Of a DNA stretch of 8,656 nt, positions 1 through 8,656 are shown one piece after another (positions within the stretch are counted from its first letter, which is position 1; every line of letters starts with the position of its first letter). Source of the DNA: Candidatus Auribacterota bacterium. Lineage in GTDB: Bacteria > Auribacterota > JAFGBW01. The position numbers and the translations under genes are program-made. A model generated the notes under the pieces. It was not told where the DNA came from. It ran no database searches and worked only from the letters and a program-made list of their open reading frames with translations. Location: NCBI GenBank assembly GCA_016932965.1, contig JAFGBW010000289.1:1-8656 (forward strand). The letters are read 5' to 3'.

Positions 1-437
1 AACACCGGATGCCTGGCACGGGGATTTAATTCCGCCAGAGGGATCAGAACAAAACGCCGTTCATGCATCTTCGGATGGGGTATCTGAAGTTTGTGTGTGT
101 TTAGGATTGTATCCCCGTACAGAATAATATCAATATCAATTTTTCTCGGACCGTACCGGAACGGTTTTTCGTTGCCGATTTTTTGTTCTATTTGTTGCAT
201 TCGTTTTAATAATTCCAAGGGTTCTATATCGGTCTGGATCTGGATCACGCAATTGATGAAATGGTTCTGTTCTCTGTATTCCAAAGGGCTGGTGAGGTAA
301 TAAGAAGAGGAAGAGATGATCCGGATGTCCTGCTCCTGGTTAATCAAAGAGATGGCATATAGGAGATTGGTTTTTGGATCTCCAAGATTGGATCCCAGGG
401 ATAAATAAGTGTTTCTACAGGAAGATGTATTCATCAT
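1..437 (-). CDS. folK: HPPK, 2-amino-4-hydroxy-6-hydroxymethyldihydropteridine diphosphokinase, C-terminus cut by window edge
   Basis: This enzyme transfers pyrophosphate from ATP to 6-hydroxymethyl-dihydropterin in cytoplasmic folate synthesis. Counting from the second of two adjacent ATG codons (434), 144 residues are visible. They include the N-terminal LSLGSNLGD (11-19), the F59-x-N61-C62 pterin-side segment, the family signature R93-Y-G-P-R-K-I-D-I-D-I-I (Mg-binding D100 and D102), and IPHPKMHERRFVL (118-130). HPPKs are usually about 150-180 residues, so only a short C-terminal tail is missing beyond position 1. The ATG pair at 437 and 434 has no clear Shine-Dalgarno sequence. No other ATG, GTG or TTG lies in frame back to the dapB stop, so 437 is the earliest start. 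It lies 49 nt downstream of dapB on the same strand and is probably translated from the dap transcript. Family assignment is secure; the exact start is less so. Confidence 0.93.
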   Translation of the reverse strand, partial: MMNTSSCRNTYLSLGSNLGDPKTNLLYAISLINQEQDIRIISSSSYYLTSPLEYREQNHFINCVIQIQTDIEPLELLKRMQQIEQKIGNEKPFRYGPRKIDIDIILYGDTILNTHKLQIPHPKMHERRFVLIPLAELNPRARHPV

Positions 438-450
438 TCTTTTAAGGTAA

Positions 451-470
451 GCGGATAAAAGTTTTTCCGC
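451..470. repeat. Short palindrome between dapB and folK, possible relict of the intergenic hairpin family
   Basis: GCGGA (451-455) and TCCGC (466-470) enclose a second near-palindrome, AAA/TTT, with one T-T mismatch. It lies 16 nt past the dapB stop on the minus strand. Read on the minus strand, TGCGGAAAAACTTTTATCC resembles the first half of the fourth hairpin at 3995-4014 (TGCGGGGAAAACTTTTGTCC, 17 of 20 aligned positions). It could be a truncated copy, or a chance AT-rich palindrome. It is not a strong terminator. Confidence 0.35.
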
Positions 471-486
471 ATATTTTCTTGAAAGG

Positions 487-1290
487 CTATGAAAGTCCCA
501 GCACGGCTTTCATGTCATAAAGGCCGGGTGTTTTTCCGATGAGGAACTCGGCGCCTTTCAATGCTCCGTGGGCAAAAGTGTCCCGGCTTTGAACACGGTG
601 AAAGAGTTCAATCTGTTCGCCCTGTCCTGCAAGAAGCAACCGGTGTTCGCCGATGATGTCTCCGCCGCGCACGGCATGAATTCCGATTTCTTTCGGAGTT
701 CTTTTTCCGATCATGCCTTTTCTGCCGTATACACCGCAGTTTTCATCCCTGTGCAGTGCCTTTCTCACTACTTCAAATAATTTCAAGGCTGTTCCGCTTG
801 GAGAATCCGCCTTTTTATTATGGTGAGCCTCGATGATTTCCATGTCGTAAAGATCACCCAGTTTTTTTGCCAGGAGTTCCGCGGCCAGAAGAACCACGTT
901 CATGCCCAATGACATGTTGGGTGAATAAAGGATCGGAATTTTTTTTGCCAGTATGGAAATCTTAGCCAATTCTTTTTCGGTAATACCGGTGGTCCCGATC
1001 ACATAAGGGATCTTTTTTTTCGCAGCCTTTTCTAAGTGAAGAAGCGTGGTGTCGTGATGAGAAAAATCAATCAGCACATCCGGATTTTCAGACAATGCTT
1101 CAATGTCAGATGTGATTTTCAAATCCGGTTTCTCTGAATGGGTGAGATGTCTGTATGACTGACCCATGCAGGGGTGTTTTGCCGCTTCAATCACTGCGCT
1201 TAATTCAAAAATATCTCCTTCCTCTGCCAGACGCGCAATCGCTTGTCCCATCCTCCCGCAACAGCCAATGATGCCTAATTTTTTTTTCAT
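487..1290 (-). CDS. dapB: 4-hydroxy-tetrahydrodipicolinate reductase (DapB)
   Basis: DapB reduces the DapA product with NAD(P)H in the lysine/diaminopimelate pathway, in the cytoplasm. The protein has 267 residues (E. coli 273). The N-terminal nucleotide-binding loop is G9-C-C-G-R-M-G15. FSHHD is at 76-80 and the GTTG segment at 99-102. The signature around E154-A-H-H-N-K-K-A-D-S-P-S-G-T167 supplies the catalytic His156 and Lys160 equivalents of E. coli His159 and Lys163. I chose the ATG at 1290 because it is preceded by AAAGGA at good spacing and the protein then begins MKKKLGIIGCCGRMG, as expected for this fold. An in-frame start at 1359 would add 23 residues encoded by the intergenic palindrome region and is unlikely. 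The gene follows dapA after a 178-nt hairpin-filled gap and precedes folK. The stop is TAG. Confidence 0.96.
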   Translation of the reverse strand: MKKKLGIIGCCGRMGQAIARLAEEGDIFELSAVIEAAKHPCMGQSYRHLTHSEKPDLKITSDIEALSENPDVLIDFSHHDTTLLHLEKAAKKKIPYVIGTTGITEKELAKISILAKKIPILYSPNMSLGMNVVLLAAELLAKKLGDLYDMEIIEAHHNKKADSPSGTALKLFEVVRKALHRDENCGVYGRKGMIGKRTPKEIGIHAVRGGDIIGEHRLLLAGQGEQIELFHRVQSRDTFAHGALKGAEFLIGKTPGLYDMKAVLGLS

Positions 1291-1296
1291 GAGATT

Positions 1297-1302
1297 TCCT
1301 TT
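1297..1302 (-). promoter_or_regulatory. Ribosome binding site that sets the dapB start
   Basis: On the minus strand AAAGGA lies 6 nt before the ATG at 1290. This supports the shorter DapB form over the in-frame upstream start at 1359. The decayed hairpin at 1321-1348 ends only 18 nt upstream of this site, so RNA structure here could affect access to it. Confidence 0.75.
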
Positions 1303-1320
1303 AATATATTTTGAAATATT

Positions 1321-1348
1321 GGAAAACTTATGTGGACAAAAGTTATCC
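1321..1348 (-). repeat. Decayed, inverted copy of the fourth hairpin of the composite element
   Basis: Arms 1321-1333 and 1336-1348 pair at 11 of 13 positions around a 2-nt GG loop. The mismatches are A1330/A1339 and A1324/A1345. On the minus strand the core CTTTTGTCCACA and the flanking AGTTTTTTGAAAGG match the perfect copies at 3978-4032 and 5209-5263, but in opposite orientation. It lies just upstream of the dapB ribosome binding site. The mismatches suggest an older copy no longer kept perfectly symmetric. Confidence 0.7.
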
Positions 1349-1372
1349 TGACCTTTCAAAAAACTATATAGG

Positions 1373-1417
1373 ATGGAACGTATCCTTACAGATAAAGACT
1401 GTAGGGATGCGTTCCAT
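1373..1417. repeat. Central hairpin of the dapA-dapB gap
   Basis: Arms 1373-1391 and 1399-1417 (19 bp) enclose the 7-nt loop ATAAAGA. Seventeen pairs are Watson-Crick. Two (T1381-G1409 and T1386-G1404) are G-U wobbles if transcribed from the plus strand but A-C mismatches in minus-strand RNA. In position it corresponds to hairpin 3 of the composite elements, since a GATAAAAGTTTTTGAAGGAG linker and another hairpin follow at 1438. Its arm sequence differs from hairpin 3 of both composite copies. Confidence 0.8.
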
Positions 1418-1437
1418 GGGATAAAAGTTTTTGAAGG

Positions 1438-1475
1438 AGTCTGAGGGAACTTTTCTCAAAAAGTTCCCTCAGACT
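1438..1475. terminator. Perfect 17-bp hairpin overlapping the dapA stop codon
   Basis: Arms 1438-1454 and 1459-1475 are fully complementary around the 4-nt loop CTCA. Each arm ends at the loop in AACTTTT or AAAAGTT, as in hairpin 4 of the composite elements, and is preceded by the same AAGTTTTTxGAA linker. The dapA TGA stop (1469-1471) and last codon lie inside one arm. It is placed to define the dapA mRNA 3' end or to attenuate read-through into dapB. There is no long uridine tract after the stem in the dapA direction, so termination is inferred from structure and position. Confidence 0.65.
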
Positions 1476-2335
1476 AATTTCATTTTAACCAATTCATCTT
1501 CCAGGATTTTAAATTTATCTGATGACATGGGGCAAAGGGGCAGGCGGAGTTCATTCTGGATGAGGCCCATTTTCGCCAGGGCGGCTTTAGCCGGCAGGGG
1601 ATTGGTTTCCAGGAAAAGCTTGGAACTCAAGCCAAAAAGCTGGTGATGGATTTTTCTTCCGGTTTCCACATCGCCTTTTAGCGCAGCATCGACCATCTGA
1701 GCAACGAGTTTGGGGACCACATTCGCAGTTACGGAAATGACACCTTTAGCGCCGACCATCATCATGGGAAAAGTCAAGGAATCATCACCGGATAAAACCG
1801 TGAGAGAGGTTTTTCCCAGGACAGCTGAAACCCGGTCAACAGAACCGCTGGCTTCCTTTATTGCCGTGATATTGGGAATCTTATTCAATTCAGCCAGTGT
1901 ATCCACATCAATGGAGACGCCGGTTCTTCCGGGAACATTATACACAACCAAAGGAATTGTGATGCTTTTTGCCACAGCTTCAAAATGCAATATCATGCCT
2001 TTTTGAGTGGGCTTATTGTAATAAGGCGTGATAACCAGCACCGCATCCGCCCCCGAACCTTCTGCATGCCGGGCAAGCTCAATGGCCTCACTTGTGCAGT
2101 TGGAACCGGCTCCTGCGATCACTTTCATCTTCCCTTTTACATGACCCACCGTTAATTCGATCAGGTGCTTGTGTTCTTCATAGCTCAAAGTCGCGGATTC
2201 ACCGGTTGTTCCGCAGGGAACAACCCCGGTTGTTCCGGCTTCCATCTGGCGGTCCAGAAGATTTCTGAATGTCTTTTCGTCTAGGACCCCGTCTTTAAAA
2301 GGAGTCACTGTCGCAACAAAAGATCCTGAGAGCAT
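1469..2335 (-). CDS. dapA: 4-hydroxy-tetrahydrodipicolinate synthase (DapA)
   Basis: DapA condenses pyruvate with aspartate semialdehyde, the first committed step to diaminopimelate and lysine, in the cytoplasm. The 288-residue protein is a full-length (beta/alpha)8 aldolase of the DapA/NAL family. C41-G-T-T-G-E46 contains the Thr43 and Thr44 pair. TPYYNKPTQKG (103-113) contains Tyr106. YNVPGRT (132-138) has Tyr132 and Arg137. The Schiff-base lysine is Lys160 in AIKEASG. These are offset by one from the E. coli catalytic residues. The ATG at 2335 is preceded by AAGGAG at 6-nt spacing. The TGA stop is inside a perfect palindrome (1438-1475). It heads the dapA-dapB-folK block and is divergent from the ATP-grasp gene. 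The family also includes N-acetylneuraminate lyases, but the dapB neighbour and CGTTGE motif favour DapA. Confidence 0.96.
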   Translation of the reverse strand: MLSGSFVATVTPFKDGVLDEKTFRNLLDRQMEAGTTGVVPCGTTGESATLSYEEHKHLIELTVGHVKGKMKVIAGAGSNCTSEAIELARHAEGSGADAVLVITPYYNKPTQKGMILHFEAVAKSITIPLVVYNVPGRTGVSIDVDTLAELNKIPNITAIKEASGSVDRVSAVLGKTSLTVLSGDDSLTFPMMMVGAKGVISVTANVVPKLVAQMVDAALKGDVETGRKIHHQLFGLSSKLFLETNPLPAKAALAKMGLIQNELRLPLCPMSSDKFKILEDELVKMKLV

Positions 2336-2508
2336 GGTTTTCTCCTTATCAGATTATTTCCGGTTATCCATTCTATTTTAGAAGGCGTGTGTCCAGAAAA
2401 AAATGAACCGAATCATCGTACCTGGAATGATGATTTTCCCAAAAAATGAGTCCGGGCGGTTGAACAATTCTGATGACATTTCATCCAGTGCCTTATATTC
2501 TTTGAGTC
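2336..2508. promoter_or_regulatory. Divergent promoter region between dapA and the ATP-grasp gene
   Basis: These 173 nt separate two divergent starts and should hold both promoters. On the plus strand TATATT (2494-2499) is a plausible -10 box only 9 nt before the ATG at 2509. Its spacing to any -35-like sequence (TTGAAC at 2460, TGACAT at 2474) is poor. On the minus strand TAAAAT (around 2380) is a weak -10 candidate for dapA. An inverted repeat, AATCATC (2411-2417) with GATGATT (2429-2435), could be an operator, but a 7-bp pair may arise by chance. I see no riboswitch-like fold and no composite-element hairpin here. Confidence 0.4.
2342..2347 (-). promoter_or_regulatory. Strong ribosome binding site of dapA
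   Basis: AAGGAG on the minus strand lies 6 nt before the dapA ATG at 2335. It contrasts with the ATP-grasp and xer genes, whose starts have no comparable sequence. Confidence 0.8.
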
Positions 2509-3738
2509 ATGCAAAATCAGGCCAGACAAAAGACTCTTCTCATGATTGGTGCCGGGATTTTTCAATCGTATGGCATCAAGGTCGCAAAAAAAATGAATTT
2601 GAAGGTCTGCGTCATTGACAAGGACGAGCATGCTCCCGGCATCCCTTTTGCCGATGATTTTATCCGGGCCAGCACCCGGCATATCGAAGAAGCCCTGCCG
2701 GCTGCCGAAGAATTTCATAAACGTTACAAACTGGATGGTGTTTTTACCTGCGGAACAGATGTTTCCCATACCGTGGCCTGTATAGCCAAAGCTCTTAATC
2801 TCCGCGGAATCCCGCCGGAAACAGCACTCTTGGCCACTGACAAGGGGAAGATGCGTGAAGCTTTGAAGAAAAAAGGGGTCCCCGTACCTTCCTTCCATGT
2901 CGTGAACAGCCTCTCCGAGGCAAAAGAAGCAGCCGCAGATATCGGATTCCCCCTGGTCATCAAACCCGTGGATAACATGGGAGCGCGCGGAGTAAAAAAA
3001 ATCGTTTCGCTGGCTGACCTGGTAAATACTTTTCCCCTTGCCCTGAATTTTTCCTCAAAAGGGCTCGTGATTCTTGAAACTTACATTTCCGGCCCTGAAA
3101 TCAGCATCGATACCCTGGTTGAAAAACCGGGCCATGTGCACCTCATCACGATCGCCGATCGCATCATTGCCATGCCCCCTTATTTCGTGGAGAAAGGCCA
3201 TACCATTCCATCCATTCATCCCAAAGAAAAATTGCACTCTGCCTTTGATATGGCTAAACGCGGTGTGGAGGCTCTGGGCATCACCCTTGGAGCTGCCAAA
3301 TATGACATGAAGCTCTCGCCCAAAGGACCTGTCATCGGAGAAATGGCGGCCCGCCTGTCCGGAGGCTTTCATTCCGGTGTCACTGAACCCCTTGCAACAG
3401 GAATGAATTCCATCAAAGCCGCCATTGACCTGTGTCTGGGCAATCCTTTAGACCTCAAAGACATCAGCCCGCGTTTTCATTACGCTGCCGCGGAACGATC
3501 CCTCTATCCCAAACCAGGCCGCGTCATCTCTATCTCCGGCGTCGATAAAGCCAGATCTTTAAAGAATATCGAGCTTGTCCACTTGAACGTCAAAGAGGGC
3601 GGTACCCTCAATCCCCTTACCTCCAATATCGGCAAAGCCGGCCATGTCGTTGGCTGGGGCAAAACCCGCTCCGAAGCTGTCAAAAACACCCTGAACGCCG
3701 TCCGTACTATCCGCATTAAGACGGATGAGCTAAGGTGA
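2509..3738 (+). CDS. ATP-grasp ligase-like protein, substrate unknown
   Basis: The 409-residue protein has the ATP-grasp architecture of carboxylate-amine ligases. The pre-ATP-grasp Rossmann-like region begins KTLLMIGAGIFQSYG (8-22) and continues to about 105. The ATP-binding core has K113 (DKGKMREAL), K152 in VIKPVDNMGARGV, E197 (GPEISID), and the metal-site segment GEMAARLSGGFHSG (277-290). A C-terminal region (about 320-409) resembles those seen in PurK/PurT and L-amino-acid-ligase-like members. Such enzymes make acyl phosphates and join them to amines; the substrate cannot be read from the sequence. The ATG at 2509 is chosen because a stop codon lies 6 nt upstream in frame and the first beta strand needs residues before Met12. 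No Shine-Dalgarno sequence is present. The TGA stop lies in the first arm of a perfect palindrome. The divergent dap genes suggest, without proving, a link to amino-acid or cell-wall metabolism. Confidence 0.85.
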   Translation: MQNQARQKTLLMIGAGIFQSYGIKVAKKMNLKVCVIDKDEHAPGIPFADDFIRASTRHIEEALPAAEEFHKRYKLDGVFTCGTDVSHTVACIAKALNLRGIPPETALLATDKGKMREALKKKGVPVPSFHVVNSLSEAKEAAADIGFPLVIKPVDNMGARGVKKIVSLADLVNTFPLALNFSSKGLVILETYISGPEISIDTLVEKPGHVHLITIADRIIAMPPYFVEKGHTIPSIHPKEKLHSAFDMAKRGVEALGITLGAAKYDMKLSPKGPVIGEMAARLSGGFHSGVTEPLATGMNSIKAAIDLCLGNPLDLKDISPRFHYAAAERSLYPKPGRVISISGVDKARSLKNIELVHLNVKEGGTLNPLTSNIGKAGHVVGWGKTRSEAVKNTLNAVRTIRIKTDELR

Positions 3739-3779
3739 AGGGAACCCATTCTTTGAGCCAAAGAATGGGTTCCCTTCAC
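3735..3779 (+). terminator. Hairpin H1 copy 1, overlapping the ATP-grasp stop codon
   Basis: The arms 3735-3755 and 3759-3779 form a perfect 21-bp stem with the 3-nt loop AGC. The ATP-grasp TGA (3736-3738) is inside the left arm. The stem is strong enough for transcription termination or mRNA 3'-end protection. The following sequence is C-rich rather than T-rich, so it is not a textbook intrinsic terminator. Confidence 0.6.
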
Positions 3780-3803
3780 GCTTCCCTCCCAAGAAATCAT
3801 TTA

Positions 3804-3841
3804 AGCGGATTGATTTTTTGAAACAAAAAAATCAATCCGCT
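3804..3841 (+). repeat. Hairpin H2 copy 1
   Basis: Arms 3804-3819 and 3826-3841 form a perfect 16-bp stem, AGCGGATTGATTTTTT against its complement, with loop GAAACA. The pair G3808-C3837 is replaced by C5029-G5059 in copy 2. A T5 run follows four nt later (TTTTT near 3847), which could help terminate plus-strand transcription from the ATP-grasp gene. Confidence 0.8.
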
Positions 3842-3906
3842 AATGGGTTTTTAATTAATATAAGCAGTCTTTTTAGACTCTGTCATGATGCTTAGTTTTA
3901 TTATTC

Positions 3907-3971
3907 CGCATTCGAAAGATCCCAAAATAAACAGAGTAAAACTCTGTTTATTTTGGGATCTTTCGAATGCG
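3907..3971 (+). repeat. Hairpin H3 copy 1, 31-bp perfect stem
   Basis: Arms 3907-3937 and 3941-3971 are perfectly complementary for 31 bp around the 3-nt loop AAA. The outer 7 bp (CGCATTC/GAATGCG) are shared with copy 2. The inner 24 bp (GAAAGATCCC and on) are unrelated to copy 2, whose stem is only 16 bp. It is flanked by TTATT and AATAA, which extend the pairing past a small internal bulge. Confidence 0.88.
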
Positions 3972-3994
3972 CCAATAAAGTTTTTTGAAAAGGG

Positions 3995-4032
3995 TGCGGG
4001 GAAAACTTTTGTCCACAAAAGTTTTCCCCGCA
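3995..4032 (-). terminator. Hairpin H4 copy 1, downstream of xer
   Basis: Arms 3995-4012 and 4015-4032 form a perfect 18-bp stem (TGCGGGGAAAACTTTTGT) with a 2-nt CC loop. It begins 27 nt past the xer stop when read on the minus strand, so it is in position to end the xer transcript. What follows on that strand is CCCTTTTCAAAAAAC, a weak tract. A T6 run lies between the stop codon and the stem. Confidence 0.55.
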
Positions 4033-4059
4033 TCTTATCCCTTTTTAAAAAATCATCCC

Positions 4060-4944
4060 CTAATAATACCTCGGATGGGCATTGCTCATGGTTTTTTTCA
4101 TCTGGTCAAATGTGACGTGGGTATAGATTTGGGTGGTGGAGATGCTTTTATGGCCAAGGAGTTCCTGCAGCGACCGGAGGTCCATTCCATTTTCCAGGAG
4201 ATGGGTGGCAAAGGAATGTCGGAAGACATGGGGGGTGACCCGGATACGGCTGCTGGTCAAGAGTCCGGCTTTTTTGACCAGGCGCTGAATGGAACGCTGG
4301 TTGAGTTTTTTCAGGTTCCGGTTGACAAAAAGGGGGGTGTTGAAATCAAACCGCAGCTTGCCGGTCAGGGCGCACATGTAACGCTGATAGGCTTTGACAG
4401 CCATTTCCCCCAAAGGGGCCAGCCTTTCTTTTTTTCTTTTTCCTTTCACCTTGAGGATTCCCTTTGACAGGTCCAAGTCGTTGAAGGTGGCATTTTCCAA
4501 TTCAGACACGCGGACTCCGCTGCCGTATAAGAATTCAATGAGAGCCAGGTTTCTGACTGTCAGCCAGTCTTCGCTGGAAAAAGCGTTCAGGATGGTTTCA
4601 ATTTCTTCAGGAGTCAGAAACTTGGGCAGGCGTTTGGCCTTGTTGGAAAGCCGAAGCGGCCTGGCTGGATGAGAGCACTCCCACCCCATTTTTTTACAGT
4701 ATCGTACAAAAGACTGGATGGAGGAGTTTTTCCTCAATACCGAGCTCCTGGCAAGGCCTGAAGAATCTAGTTTTAAAAGATGCGCTTTGATCCTGTTCGT
4801 GTCTAAATCAGACACATCTTTTGCTTTGGTGTTCTGGATAAATTCATTGAGGTCCGTGGAATAGCTTTTCAGCGTGTGTTCTGAATAATTCCTGCTGTTC
4901 CGGCAGTAATCAATGAATTGAAGTATGGCTTGTTCCAGTTTCAT
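4060..4944 (-). CDS. XerC/XerD-family tyrosine recombinase
   Basis: The 294-residue protein has the length and layout of Xer recombinases, which resolve chromosome dimers at dif. The N-terminal SAM-like core-binding domain covers about 1-90 (SEHTLKSYSTDL, 21-32). The catalytic domain has Arg145 (GSGVRVSELENA), Lys169 in VKGKRKKER, His239-x-x-Arg242 (HVFRHSFATHLL), His265 (LLGHKSISTTQIYTH) and nucleophile Tyr274. Arg145-Lys169 and His265-Tyr274 spacings equal those of E. coli XerD. The C-terminus ends AHPRYY, near the usual Xer ending AHPR. I start at the ATG at 4944 (MKLEQAILQF). An in-frame GTG at 4980 would add 12 residues encoded inside hairpin H1 and is disfavoured. No Shine-Dalgarno sequence is seen. 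Composite elements lie immediately on both sides. XerC and XerD cannot be told apart safely, and phage or island integrase paralogues remain possible. Confidence 0.9.
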   Translation of the reverse strand: MKLEQAILQFIDYCRNSRNYSEHTLKSYSTDLNEFIQNTKAKDVSDLDTNRIKAHLLKLDSSGLARSSVLRKNSSIQSFVRYCKKMGWECSHPARPLRLSNKAKRLPKFLTPEEIETILNAFSSEDWLTVRNLALIEFLYGSGVRVSELENATFNDLDLSKGILKVKGKRKKERLAPLGEMAVKAYQRYMCALTGKLRFDFNTPLFVNRNLKKLNQRSIQRLVKKAGLLTSSRIRVTPHVFRHSFATHLLENGMDLRSLQELLGHKSISTTQIYTHVTFDQMKKTMSNAHPRYY

Positions 4945-4955
4945 AAAGATCGTGA

Positions 4956-5000
4956 ATGAAGGGAACCCATTCTTTGGCACAAAGAATGGGTTCCCTTCAT
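4956..5000 (-). repeat. Hairpin H1 copy 2, in the xer 5' leader
   Basis: Arms 4956-4976 and 4980-5000 form a perfect 21-bp stem with loop GCA. It equals H1 of copy 1 except that the base pair at the foot is A4956-T5000 instead of G3735-C3779. It ends 11 nt before the xer ATG (4944) on the minus strand, where a ribosome binding site would be expected. In an xer mRNA begun upstream it would occlude translation initiation. Confidence 0.85.
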
Positions 5001-5023
5001 GCTACCCTCCGAAGAAAGTATTC

Positions 5024-5064
5024 AAGCGCATTGATTTTTTTGAAACAAAAAAATCAATGCGCTT
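5024..5064 (+). repeat. Hairpin H2 copy 2
   Basis: Arms 5024-5041 and 5047-5064 form a perfect 18-bp stem with loop GAAAC. Relative to copy 1 the C5029-G5059 pair replaces G-C, and the T/A run is longer by one pair. Confidence 0.82.
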
Positions 5065-5167
5065 TACGTGTTCTTACAAGATGTATTTTTTATCGGACAG
5101 TGAAGTGTTAATTCTGTTTTGATTGATATATCATTCGGACCGTTGGAAGTTTTATATATAACTATTC

Positions 5168-5202
5168 CGCATTCATGGAAACAAAATGTTTCCATGAATG
5201 CG
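5168..5202 (+). repeat. Hairpin H3 copy 2
   Basis: Arms 5168-5183 and 5187-5202 form a perfect 16-bp stem with loop AAA. It shares the outer CGCATTC/GAATGCG, the preceding TATTC and the following CCAAT with copy 1. The inner nine base pairs (ATGGAAACA) are unrelated to copy 1. Confidence 0.85.
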
Positions 5203-5225
5203 CCAATGAAGTTTTTTGAAAAGGG

Positions 5226-5263
5226 TGCGGGAGAAACTTTTGTCCACAAAAGTTTCTCCCGCA
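5226..5263 (-). terminator. Hairpin H4 copy 2, downstream of the large gene
   Basis: Arms 5226-5243 and 5246-5263 form a perfect 18-bp stem (TGCGGGAGAAACTTTTGT) with a CC loop, 18 nt past the stop codon of the large minus-strand gene. Two adjacent pairs differ from copy 1, both compensated. It is likely the 3' boundary of the large gene's transcript, though followed only by a short CCCTTTTC tract on that strand. Confidence 0.55.
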
Positions 5264-5281
5264 GAAAATTAATTCTTTCAA

Positions 5282-8200
5282 TTATGCCGCGGTGGCTGAG
5301 GGGGGATGCAGATCCGGGGCAGGAACTTGAGGGGGTTGCGGCAGGTATTCTTGGAGGTGGGTTAAAAGGTCTGCCAGATTCGGCGCCAGTTGGGAAATAT
5401 AGGTGCCAAAGAGAGTGCGGAACATGAGCATGGATTCCGTTTCGGTCAACTCCTGTCCGCCTTCTTTAAAACATCTATCCATTTCTGCTTTAGTAGCCTC
5501 GATCAATTGTCTTAGCTCAGTATCAGACCCACGGGTTGATGGCACGGCGAATTTCATTAAAGCAGTTATAAATTTTCCGGTTATCAACTGGACAGCTGTC
5601 CTTGCCGCTGGATGCAAGGCTGCTTTTTTCAGTTGTGCTGTGCGAACAGGGTCCACATCAGGTGCAGGGGTCAAAGCTGCCTGTTCACGAGATCGATCCA
5701 CTCTTTCTTGGAATTGTGGTGTTTGATCAATGGCAGCATTAGGATCAACAGGCGGTGCTGTTGGAGGCTGCACAGGGGGGGAGGGTGGGGATGGTGGTGC
5801 TAGAGGAGGCGGTGCTGTTGCGGGGGCTTCAGATGATGGCGCCACTGTTGTTGTGAGTTGTTGGGCGATTGACTCCATCCTTTCAATAGCAACAGCGATT
5901 TCATTGGTAAGAACTTCTGTGATAGGATTCTCCGGTTCTCTCAGCGGCATTTTTATGCTGGTTACGTCTGAAGTATCATATTGGCTTTTATCAAGGCCGG
6001 CATAAGTGAGAATGGTCTCCAGATATTCCTTGGCGGTTTTCCACAGGACGAGAGCATTAGACACAGTAGCGCGGCATTTATTTCCCAGTTCATCGGCACC
6101 AGCTGCCCAGGAGCTTTGTGCTATTGCCAAATCAACACGGTATTCTTCTGCTGCCCGTTCTGCATTTTTTGCCTGGTCCATGATGTTCATGGCAGTGGCA
6201 AAAAGGAGGCTGTTATCCGTCCAAAAATCATTCAGCCTTTGCTGTGTTTCACCGATGACTTTCTCCTCGGCAGGATCAATTATCTCGTTGGCTAACTTCA
6301 GGGTTTCCTGATTAGCGTCCAGCCATGCTTTGACAGCATCCAGAAGTTGCATCAGATGATCAATATAGTCCCTGTTTACAGCATCTGCCTGCAGAGGGAA
6401 TGAAAGAGCTTGTGTTCCACTGACAACCTGTGACAAAACAGCCGTATATTCAGCCTGACGTGCCAATTCCTGTTGCAGGGCCTGTAAAAACGGGATCTTA
6501 GCCAGGATGGCTTCGCCTTTGGTTTTTCTTTGCGCAATATCAGCGATTGCGCTGGATGTCTGGCTTAATTCCTGGACAGCCTGGAATAATCCTGCTTTGG
6601 CAGGTTCAGGAGAGCGGAGGTATGTAGCGACTGCTTCTTGGGCCACTTTTATTTTGCGCTCTGCTTCCTGCCAGGCTCTGTTGGCATCGGTATTGGCCTT
6701 TTGCCATTCCGTTGCATCAAATCTCAACATGACTAAATATCCATACCAGGTATTGGAATTCCATTGCTCTCTAAATGTTTTTTCACTGGCCGTATCTCTG
6801 TTAAGGCTGGCCAGTAACTGGGCGTCCTTTTCTGATGCAGCCTGCGCTTTTTGGACAGCCTGGCGAGCATCTTCCATCAATTGGTCAGGCGGCATTAGTT
6901 TTTCAGCGGCTTCTGCACGGCGTTTTGCATCAACTGACGGGAGGTTGACAAATCTGAACGTATAGTTTCTCACGGCTGTTCCCGGATTAGCCACTGCTTC
7001 TCTTAACGCATTAAGCTCAGGATCATCAGCGTAGGCTGTTTGTGAGGTGGCATACTGCACTAAAGTCTGCAGGTAGAGTTTGGCAGTATTATATAAATCC
7101 AATGTATTATAAACTGTACGGCGATATTGAACTGCTTTTTCACCCACTTCTGGGGGATTTTGTTCTATGGCTGCAGTCAATTCTCCTTCATATTTGTTTG
7201 CCGCCTCATCGGAAAGCTTCGCCAGTTCAACTATTTTTTTCGCCTGAGCAAAAAGAACGCTTTGATCTGTCCAGAAACTTTTTTGTCTTTGTACGGCATC
7301 TGCGATAATTCCAGCTTCATTTATCTTTTTGGCTGACTGAAGGGTTTTCTCATTGGCATCCAGCCATGCAGAGGCAAGTGAAGGGAGCTGAAGCAGGAGA
7401 TCAATATAATCCTGGCCCTGTTCATCCAGGGATAAGGGAAAACTAAGACCTTCTGCTTTTACCTCAATCATTGACAAAAGAGTCTGATAACGAAGCTGAT
7501 ATTCTCTTTCCCGGATCAGATTTCTTAACAAATGGAGTCTGGCAGTTGCATTCAAGCCTTGAGCCATTCTTTCTCCGCCATCAAATAAAGCCCGGTTTTG
7601 TTTATCTAACATATTGACAGATTCGTATAATTGTAGTTTATCTGGATCTTGAGATATCCCATAAGATCTAGTTGCCTGGATAGCTAAGTTTATTTTGCTT
7701 GAGGCTTCAAGCATGTGGGCTTGATTTGCTTGTTCATGAGCGGTCTGCCATGCTTTGACTGACGTGTCATTGTCGAGATTCTCTCTCAGTTCAGCAGACA
7801 AGACCTCACCGGATTGAATCATTTCCTCGATTTGTTTTTGGAATCTGGTCAGGTCTTCCAGAAGCCGGGTGTCTTCGGCAATGGCCTGGCGTGCTTCCTC
7901 CAGACTTCTTTCAGCGTCCCTGACCTGGGCGACGATTTCCTGGTATCTTTCATTTGCCTTCTGGGTGGATTCCAAATCAATATAAGCCATGGCAGCGGAG
8001 GAACTCGTCTCATGGGCCATCGTGGCCCGGGATGGAATGGGCTCTTCTAAAAAAATATCCGCTATTGCTGCTGCGTTTTCACCTGCCAGTTCATTTGCCC
8101 TCCGGATATGAGTGACAACCGCTTCAACATTTCGAACCGCATCGGTGTATGCCCTGCGTTTGGTTCTATCCAGGTCATTTTTATACGGTTCGCAAAGATT

Positions 8201-8656
8201 GCGTATGGTCAGGGCGCAATTCAAGGCCTTCTGATAAGCAATCACCGTTGCCCGGTTTGGGCCGGTCAACGCGATGAATTGTGAATACAATTTCCGGCAT
8301 TCTTCATGGGTTGTTTTGTATTGGGCTAAAAGATTGGGATCGATTTCTTTACCTTGGCCTTTTATCCTGCCCAATAAGGTGACTTCTTCCTGGGATATAG
8401 TGAGATATTGCTCATAGAGCGCCGTGTCAGCTTGTTCAGTTCTGCCCGCATCTGTCAGCAGTTCAATTAATTGATCATTCAATTCATTCAGAAGGAGTGG
8501 TAGCGTTAATATCTCTTGTTCAGGGTTTGGAAAAATGTTCAGTGCAGTAGTTATCAAGCGTACTTCTTCATGAAGGAATCGTTCAGAGGCATCATTGCTT
8601 TCCCTGAAAGCAGCGGTTGCCTCCTGGGCTGAACGTAAACTGGCAGAGGCGTGCGC
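5282..8656 (-). CDS. Large repetitive helical protein of unknown function, N-terminus beyond window
   Basis: The frame is open from the right edge to TAA at 5282 (1124 residues visible). No ATG start is seen; a TTG at 8557 lies inside the frame, and the 33 codons before it encode similar helical sequence, so it is not the start. Counting that TTG as residue 1, there are charged, Ala/Gln/Glu-rich helices likely to form coiled coils (about 197-260 and 540-680). Two tandem units follow with a period near 347 residues, sharing LSFPL, DYID, AWLDAN and FWTD. A proline-rich linker spans 907-940, and a C-terminal helical domain about 951-1070 ends in a Pro/Ala tail. The N-terminal LTLPL (17-21) hints at a third, diverged unit. 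No catalytic motif or membrane segment is visible; a signal peptide cannot be judged. A structural, surface or secreted role is possible, but I infer no function. Confidence 0.85.
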   Translation of the reverse strand, partial: AHASASLRSAQEATAAFRESNDASERFLHEEVRLITTALNIFPNPEQEILTLPLLLNELNDQLIELLTDAGRTEQADTALYEQYLTISQEEVTLLGRIKGQGKEIDPNLLAQYKTTHEECRKLYSQFIALTGPNRATVIAYQKALNCALTIRNLCEPYKNDLDRTKRRAYTDAVRNVEAVVTHIRRANELAGENAAAIADIFLEEPIPSRATMAHETSSSAAMAYIDLESTQKANERYQEIVAQVRDAERSLEEARQAIAEDTRLLEDLTRFQKQIEEMIQSGEVLSAELRENLDNDTSVKAWQTAHEQANQAHMLEASSKINLAIQATRSYGISQDPDKLQLYESVNMLDKQNRALFDGGERMAQGLNATARLHLLRNLIREREYQLRYQTLLSMIEVKAEGLSFPLSLDEQGQDYIDLLLQLPSLASAWLDANEKTLQSAKKINEAGIIADAVQRQKSFWTDQSVLFAQAKKIVELAKLSDEAANKYEGELTAAIEQNPPEVGEKAVQYRRTVYNTLDLYNTAKLYLQTLVQYATSQTAYADDPELNALREAVANPGTAVRNYTFRFVNLPSVDAKRRAEAAEKLMPPDQLMEDARQAVQKAQAASEKDAQLLASLNRDTASEKTFREQWNSNTWYGYLVMLRFDATEWQKANTDANRAWQEAERKIKVAQEAVATYLRSPEPAKAGLFQAVQELSQTSSAIADIAQRKTKGEAILAKIPFLQALQQELARQAEYTAVLSQVVSGTQALSFPLQADAVNRDYIDHLMQLLDAVKAWLDANQETLKLANEIIDPAEEKVIGETQQRLNDFWTDNSLLFATAMNIMDQAKNAERAAEEYRVDLAIAQSSWAAGADELGNKCRATVSNALVLWKTAKEYLETILTYAGLDKSQYDTSDVTSIKMPLREPENPITEVLTNEIAVAIERMESIAQQLTTTVAPSSEAPATAPPPLAPPSPPSPPVQPPTAPPVDPNAAIDQTPQFQERVDRSREQAALTPAPDVDPVRTAQLKKAALHPAARTAVQLITGKFITALMKFAVPSTRGSDTELRQLIEATKAEMDRCFKEGGQELTETESMLMFRTLFGTYISQLAPNLADLLTHLQEYLPQPPQVPAPDLHPPSATAA
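5738..5857 (-). other. Proline-rich linker in the large protein
   Basis: Residues 901-940 are dominated by Pro, Ala, Ser and Thr (APPPLAPPSPPSPP). The segment separates the helical repeats from the C-terminal domain. Such segments are usually extended and flexible, and in secreted or envelope proteins often act as spacers. The G-rich plus-strand DNA follows directly from the proline codons. Confidence 0.8.
5972..6415 (-). repeat. Protein repeat unit 2, conserved core
   Basis: This encodes residues 715-862 of the large protein. It runs from LSFPL (718-722), through DYIDHLMQLL, AWLDAN (744-749) and FWTDNSLLFATA (778-789), to the TAKEYLETILTYA segment. It is diverged enough (several small insertions, many substitutions) that it is an old internal duplication, not a recent one. 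The helical stretch before each core (197-240 and 541-585) also aligns weakly, so the full unit is near 347 residues. Confidence 0.85.
7028..7456 (-). repeat. Protein repeat unit 1, conserved core
   Basis: This encodes residues 368-510 of the large protein (TTG at 8557 as residue 1). It runs from LSFPL (371-375), through DYIDLLLQL, AWLDAN (397-402), FWTDQSVLFAQA (428-439) and YRRTVYNTLDLYNTAKLYL, to YA. It aligns with unit 2 at an offset of 347-350 residues. DNA similarity is visible too: TCCAGCCATGC occurs in both units (near 6321 and 7360). Confidence 0.85.

Follow-up and report, generated by a model that had tools for sequence, protein, structure and literature searches.

Abundant bacterial palindromes, the repetitive extragenic palindromic (REP) sequences, are largely explained by REP-associated tyrosine transposases (RAYTs), and a subset is without a known mover. 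The palindromes described here lie in an 8,656-nt stretch of DNA from a Candidatus Auribacterota bacterium (contig JAFGBW010000289.1 of assembly GCA_016932965.1, positions 1 to 8,656 of the forward strand), referred to at its full length as the window. The initial annotation recognised two copies of a four-hairpin element in it. These copies are members of a dispersed palindromic repeat family that lies at gene ends and recurs in distant phyla, and which is, on balance, probably mobile in the manner of REP sequences.

The closest described systems are the REPs, bacterial interspersed mosaic elements (BIMEs) and REPINs associated with RAYTs, and mobilisation as a single-strand hairpin has been proposed for REPs (PMC2817692, PMC3733652). 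Like them, the present family consists of high-copy extragenic palindromes of species-specific abundance, arranged in inverted pairs and lying for the most part downstream of coding regions, where the gap is tandem or convergent. The inverted pairs have variable spacers, as in BIMEs and REPINs, and copy number is high, with ~60 sites here and hundreds of pattern matches in another carrier genome, G052. However, the stems are longer than those of REPs and nearly perfect, and a conserved core and an extra inner hairpin with freely varying arms are present. A GTAG or CGTC tetramer was found near the foot in two of 20 copies checked, and there is no cognate RAYT (Y1) gene flanked by two inverted copies. 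The family therefore works like REPs but, lacking the tag and the RAYT/Y1 gene, is not classed with them. CGTC-tagged REPs include families described as apparently without a dedicated transposase (PMC3733652); they share this trait with the present repeat, which differs in missing the CGTC tag. IS200/IS605 elements carry a Y1 transposase and, at both ends, subterminal hairpins, whereas here no Y1 gene, and no transposase between inverted units, was detected. Mitochondrial double-hairpin elements and other repetitive hairpin-forming elements (e.g. PMC2800124) are hairpins, single or in pairs, that are scattered through intergenic DNA; they are organellar, and are set apart from the family by description rather than by sequence. 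Searching the window with Rfam models gave no match at the gathering score, and no paper containing the family sequence was found in the open-access literature.

Anatomy and occurrence of the repeat unit

The basic unit is an outer hairpin with a core of ~23 nt, best seen as CACCCTTTTCAAAAAACTTTATTGG, after which, in this genome, comes a near-perfect inner hairpin. Although the four hairpins (H1 to H4) of the annotated element are real, they do not make up one unit but two inverted ones, given that the H1-H2 linker and the reverse-complemented H3-H4 linker are versions of the same core. The stretch between H2 and H3, which separates the paired units, is not conserved. Units occur singly or paired, and inverted pairs with unrelated spacers were found in the window and at loci L009, L010, L014, L022, L026, L031 and L039. 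At L026, and in a third, decayed composite of the window (1321-1475) whose stems carry one-sided mismatches, one inner hairpin serves two units.

The outer hairpin has a near-perfect stem of ~18 bp with a GC-rich foot and a AAAACTTTT-type apex. Several sequence types of outer hairpin exist, and the core varies along with the type. Inner hairpins of the common type have similar short feet, while their arms, of 16 to 31 bp, may differ entirely from copy to copy and are still near-perfect palindromes. Among type-A copies the majority fraction was 0.81-0.89 across the hairpin-core-hairpin block and 0.41-0.65 outside it. A second repeat of ~75-90 bp, GCGAAGACAAGGATGTCG...GGTGACC...GGGCAAGGCCA-GA-GGCCG, is nested in unit cores at L014:2190-2270 and L042:2100-2175, in both cases at the identical position within the core.

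Further copies were collected from the source genome, as the initial annotation had proposed. A covariance model of the outer hairpin plus core (R1), built from 11 copies, gave 131 matches on both strands of the 3.14-Mb draft. At E <2e-4 these resolve to 62 distinct sites, spread over 46 contigs. Opposite-strand matches at a single hairpin arise because the hairpin is palindromic and often has, towards the gene, a weaker sequence resembling the core. Genome counts were drawn from searches and fetched stretches, and all R1 copy numbers are lower bounds, since no more than 150 candidates were scored in each genome, or 37 in the large scan. Hairpins of comparable quality numbered 11 in 204 kb of real genome DNA and none in base-shuffled versions. 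The draft consists of 300 contigs (92.6% complete), which might suggest an assembly artefact or contamination, but the probability of this is negligible: the sites have distinct gene contexts, estimated contamination is 2%, the copies differ by compensated changes, and the motif recurs in independent assemblies.

The distribution outside this genome is patchy. No match was obtained by BLASTN in 18 relatives, nor with R1 in 13 genomes of the same phylum, two of them of the same order, and 338 kb of a same-order relative (G001) held no double-hairpin units. A 28-nt core-plus-foot pattern nevertheless matched exactly in gut Clostridia and in one Verrucomicrobiota genome, with copy numbers from the tens to the hundreds in several such genomes, while the reversed control gave almost none. 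In G048, G052 and G054 (two gut Clostridia and one Verrucomicrobiota) R1 matched at least 140 times per genome, with E-values down to 1e-17. Among 145 sampled Verrucomicrobiota, 15 had R1 matches, some of which were hairpin-only and of moderate score. A sample of 291 members of G052's class held the near-exact motif in one genome, and G052 has 221 copies. In the Clostridia and Verrucomicrobiota carriers the unit is a hairpin and core without the inner hairpin, and many units lie 5-20 nt behind stop codons. Because the distribution is patchy and yet the sequence is shared, horizontal spread with local amplification is suggested rather than an inherited regulatory signal.

Several individual loci were also recorded in these genomes. 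The Verrucomicrobiota copy at L206:1502-1537 has the asymmetric loop CTTTTGTGGACAAAAG, as in the H4 unit of the window, and a very similar core (CCCAAAAAACTTTGATTGCGG). Near-identical palindromes with 27-bp arms at L209:1511-1568 and L210:1494-1551, from two other Verrucomicrobiota genomes, possibly represent a sister family, and one of the two genomes has many equal-scoring copies. Another local repeat, in a Clostridia genome, is a short palindrome at L172:17672-17699 that recurs unchanged, flanks included, 146 bp away at 17818-17845.

Placement at gene ends and symmetry of the stems

For the 39 units of the source genome with readable neighbours, the outer hairpin faced the 3’ end of a gene at no more than 40 nt from its stop codon in 30 cases, against 8.2 expected. 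The expectation was obtained by random placement and orientation within the same gaps, and none of 20,000 simulations reached 30. The median distance from the outer hairpin to the stop codon was 20 nt, and the gaps were convergent in 18 cases, tandem in 20 and divergent in one. In three genes, including dapA and the ATP-grasp gene of the window, the stop codon is the TGA of the hairpin itself. Genes were called simply as the longest open reading frames (ORFs), and some assignments of 5’ ends are therefore uncertain.

Such placement, with convergent gaps enriched, would be expected if the outer hairpins were non-canonical transcription terminators or protectors of mRNA 3’ ends, with compensation reflecting selection on an RNA fold. 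General surveys find stem-loops concentrated near 3’ ends and within convergent gaps (PMC1590033), so that gene-end position alone also counts against a reading specific to mobile repeats. In G052 a unit follows the clpX stop codon by 5 nt; the clpX match to family relatives stops with the gene itself, and three of those relatives that could be read have canonical terminators at that spot. However, an intrinsic terminator has a U-tract straight after its GC-rich hairpin, whereas ACCCTTTTC or GCTTCCCTCC follows the hairpins here. Terminator-like calls in the window region numbered 8 against 6.3 in shuffled sequence, and some outer hairpins face gene starts. The repeated sequence, the extremely patchy distribution and the lack of a preference for wobble pairs, described below, likewise differ from terminators, and this explanation is considered unlikely.

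The initial annotation held that all stem differences between the two copies are compensated. Its named pairs proved correct on recomputation: one compensated pair differs in H1 (G3735-C3779 versus A4956-T5000), one in H2, a G-C to C-G transversion (G3808-C3837 versus C5029-G5059), and two in H4 (G4001-C4026 and A4002-T4025 versus A5232-T5257 and G5233-C5256). In H3 only a 7-bp foot (CGCATTC/GAATGCG) is kept, and the apical arms are unrelated, 31 bp in one copy and 16 bp in the other, both near-perfect. The claim thus stands for every substitution but not for length, given that in H2 of copy 1 a run of T6 beside the loop faces A7, an uncompensated difference of 1 nt. Across the family one-sided changes are rare but not absent. 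Of 95 stems, 67 were perfect and 28 had at least one mismatch, with 40 of 1,745 pairs (~2%) mismatched; compensation is therefore very strong but not absolute.

Covariation across aligned copies, the check put forward with the original claim, was clear in both hairpins. MAFFT alignments mixed hairpins of different register, and covariation was counted on in-register subsets only. Within 11 common-type copies, seven of the 16 inner-hairpin pairs had changed on both sides, and the changed cells comprised 11 two-sided changes, one one-sided change (G-U) and three broken pairs. Outer hairpins contributed 13 cells with two-sided changes. In each case the covariation score was reached by none of 500 shuffles.

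The type of mismatch bears on the level at which symmetry is kept. Oriented from gene to core, the 40 mismatches comprised 8 G.T, 17 A.C and 15 others, and element hairpins pooled from three phyla gave 12 of each of the first two. In the same data, ordinary T-tailed hairpins showed the opposite tendency (13 G.T versus 6 A.C, both small numbers). The finder penalises both mismatch types equally, and the ratio is therefore not biased by it. Selection on a single RNA should favour G.U pairs; as G.T is not in excess of A.C, symmetry seems to be maintained at the DNA level or strand-symmetrically, not in one RNA. The initial annotation had named two causes, selection for the fold and a symmetry-restoring process. 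Palindromy is indeed actively kept, as the covariation confirms, but selection acting on the fold of a single RNA is disfavoured.

Template switching during replication, which homogenises arms and inverts loops (PMC8604942), could copy one arm onto the other and preserve palindromy without any selection on the hairpin. Loop inversion is seen in a neighbouring pair of L014 (GCA versus TGC) and in the AAC/GTT and AAA/TTT loops of inner hairpins, inner arms have been replaced wholesale and are still near-perfect, and two-sided transversions (G-C to C-G, T-A to A-T) are common. On the other hand, most asymmetric loops keep their orientation to the core (GTGGAC/GTGAAC, 9/9 here and mostly so in G052) and the outer arms and core are alike across phyla, so that repair alone is insufficient to account for the family. 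Dispersal and gene-end position are also left unexplained, and as a full account template switching is distinctly improbable. A mobile repeat thus has its main rivals in terminator function and template-switch repair, either of which might also operate in addition to mobility.

Repeat units and neighbouring genes in the window

Coordinates of the units, read from the sequence and recomputed for the two copies, are collected in Table 1. At the foot of the outer hairpin of unit 1 lies the TGA (3736-3738) that ends the ATP-grasp gene upstream. The loop TTGTCCACA of both type-A outer hairpins resembles a DnaA box, TTATCCACA, with one change, and is present in some copies only.

Table 1. Repeat units of the window and their parts
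Feature	Positions	Strand	Remarks
Third composite, decayed outer hairpin (1321-1348) and core (1349-1372)	1321-1372	+	2 mismatches in hairpin; 37.5 bits
Third composite, inner hairpin common to both units	1373-1417		Two one-sided mismatches
Third composite, core (1418-1437) and outer hairpin (1438-1475)	1418-1475	-	Foot includes dapA TGA stop
Unit 1 outer hairpin H1, type C	3735-3779	+	21-bp perfect stem, loop AGC
Unit 1 core/linker, type C	3780-3803	+	
Unit 1 inner hairpin H2	3804-3841	+	T6 versus A7
Spacer between inverted units 1 and 2	3842-3906		Differs between copies, not conserved
Unit 2 inner hairpin H3	3907-3971	-	31-bp perfect arms; foot CGCATTC common to 5168-5202; apical arms unique
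Unit 2 core	3972-3994	-	CACCCTTTTCAAAAAACTTTATTGG on minus strand; with H4 90.3 bits (covariance model)
Unit 2 outer hairpin H4, type A	3995-4032	-	27 nt from stop of XerC/XerD-type gene (4060-4944)
Unit 3 outer hairpin H1, type C	4956-5000	+	Loop GCA
Unit 3 core/linker	5001-5024	+	
Unit 3 inner hairpin H2	5025-5063	+	Perfect
Unit 4 inner hairpin H3	5168-5202	-	16-bp arms, consensus type A
Unit 4 core	5203-5225	-	
Unit 4 outer hairpin H4, type A	5226-5263	-	18 nt from stop of 1124-aa ORF (5282-8656); 87.2 bits

The two copies flank a gene for a XerC/XerD-type tyrosine recombinase, and the hairpins could on that ground be attC- or dif-like recombination sites. This is very improbable. The genome encodes two such recombinases, the other of which has no unit in the surrounding 3.5 kb, and the association was rejected; the ~60 sites flank ordinary genes. 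Integron attC sites are characterised by R/L boxes with GTTRRRY and go with an integron integrase; compared with the integron integrase cut-off of 265 bits, the recombinase scored far below, at 146 bits. The ORF at 5282-8656 (minus strand, at least 1124 aa) continues past the contig end and had no Pfam or NCBIfam match; its DNA contains direct repeats ~1041 bp apart, and the C-terminal part of the product is proline-rich.

Proposed mobility and candidate movers

The reading favoured here, with somewhat better than even confidence, is that of a mobile, REP/BIME-like repeat family dispersed to gene ends across phyla. Units would insert or come to rest with the outer hairpin towards a gene, as a rule no more than ~25 nt beyond the stop codon, and two units in inverted orientation would often share one gap. 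The DNA hairpin, as a single strand or a cruciform, may be recognised together with the core by a trans-acting enzyme that copies the unit, in which case broken palindromes would be weeded out or repaired. Sites at gene ends may persist where insertion is least harmful and where the hairpin can be used as a transcript 3’ end.

Several results weigh against this reading. Y1/RAYT transposases (PF01797) were not found in the source genome at its stated completeness, nor in five of seven other carriers; the remaining two carriers have one stop-containing and one partial Y1 copy, neither with adjacent units. RAYT/Y1 was accordingly rejected as the mover, with an intact gene in none of the seven. 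An autonomous version carried between inverted units was likewise rejected, as the genes there are ordinary, some of them housekeeping and the others single and unrelated. Examples are an unassigned gene in L019 and one of Npun_F2552 type in L023, and in G052 clpX and mutL. No target-site duplication was seen at the units. Plasmid, phage and viral collections gave no match, and hence no vehicle, and no family-level relative of the source genome, in which an empty site might be seen, was among those searched.

More tentatively, the family may represent a cross-phylum class of mobile hairpin with a ~23-nt core, spread horizontally without RAYT/Y1 and driven by an as yet unrecognised enzyme, its palindromes being actively renewed. 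This proposal would take in amplification at gene ends to copy numbers in the tens to hundreds and the finding that even new inner arms stay symmetric.

The family is a further case of a transposase-less palindrome, with a sharp signature that is common to distant phyla but did not turn up in any relative searched. What moves such palindromes and what maintains them thereby becomes a testable question, given that genes co-occurring with the repeat in unrelated carriers are candidates. The repeat also provides a natural test of DNA-level against RNA-level covariation: compensated changes are usually read as evidence of structured RNA, and here they probably are not.

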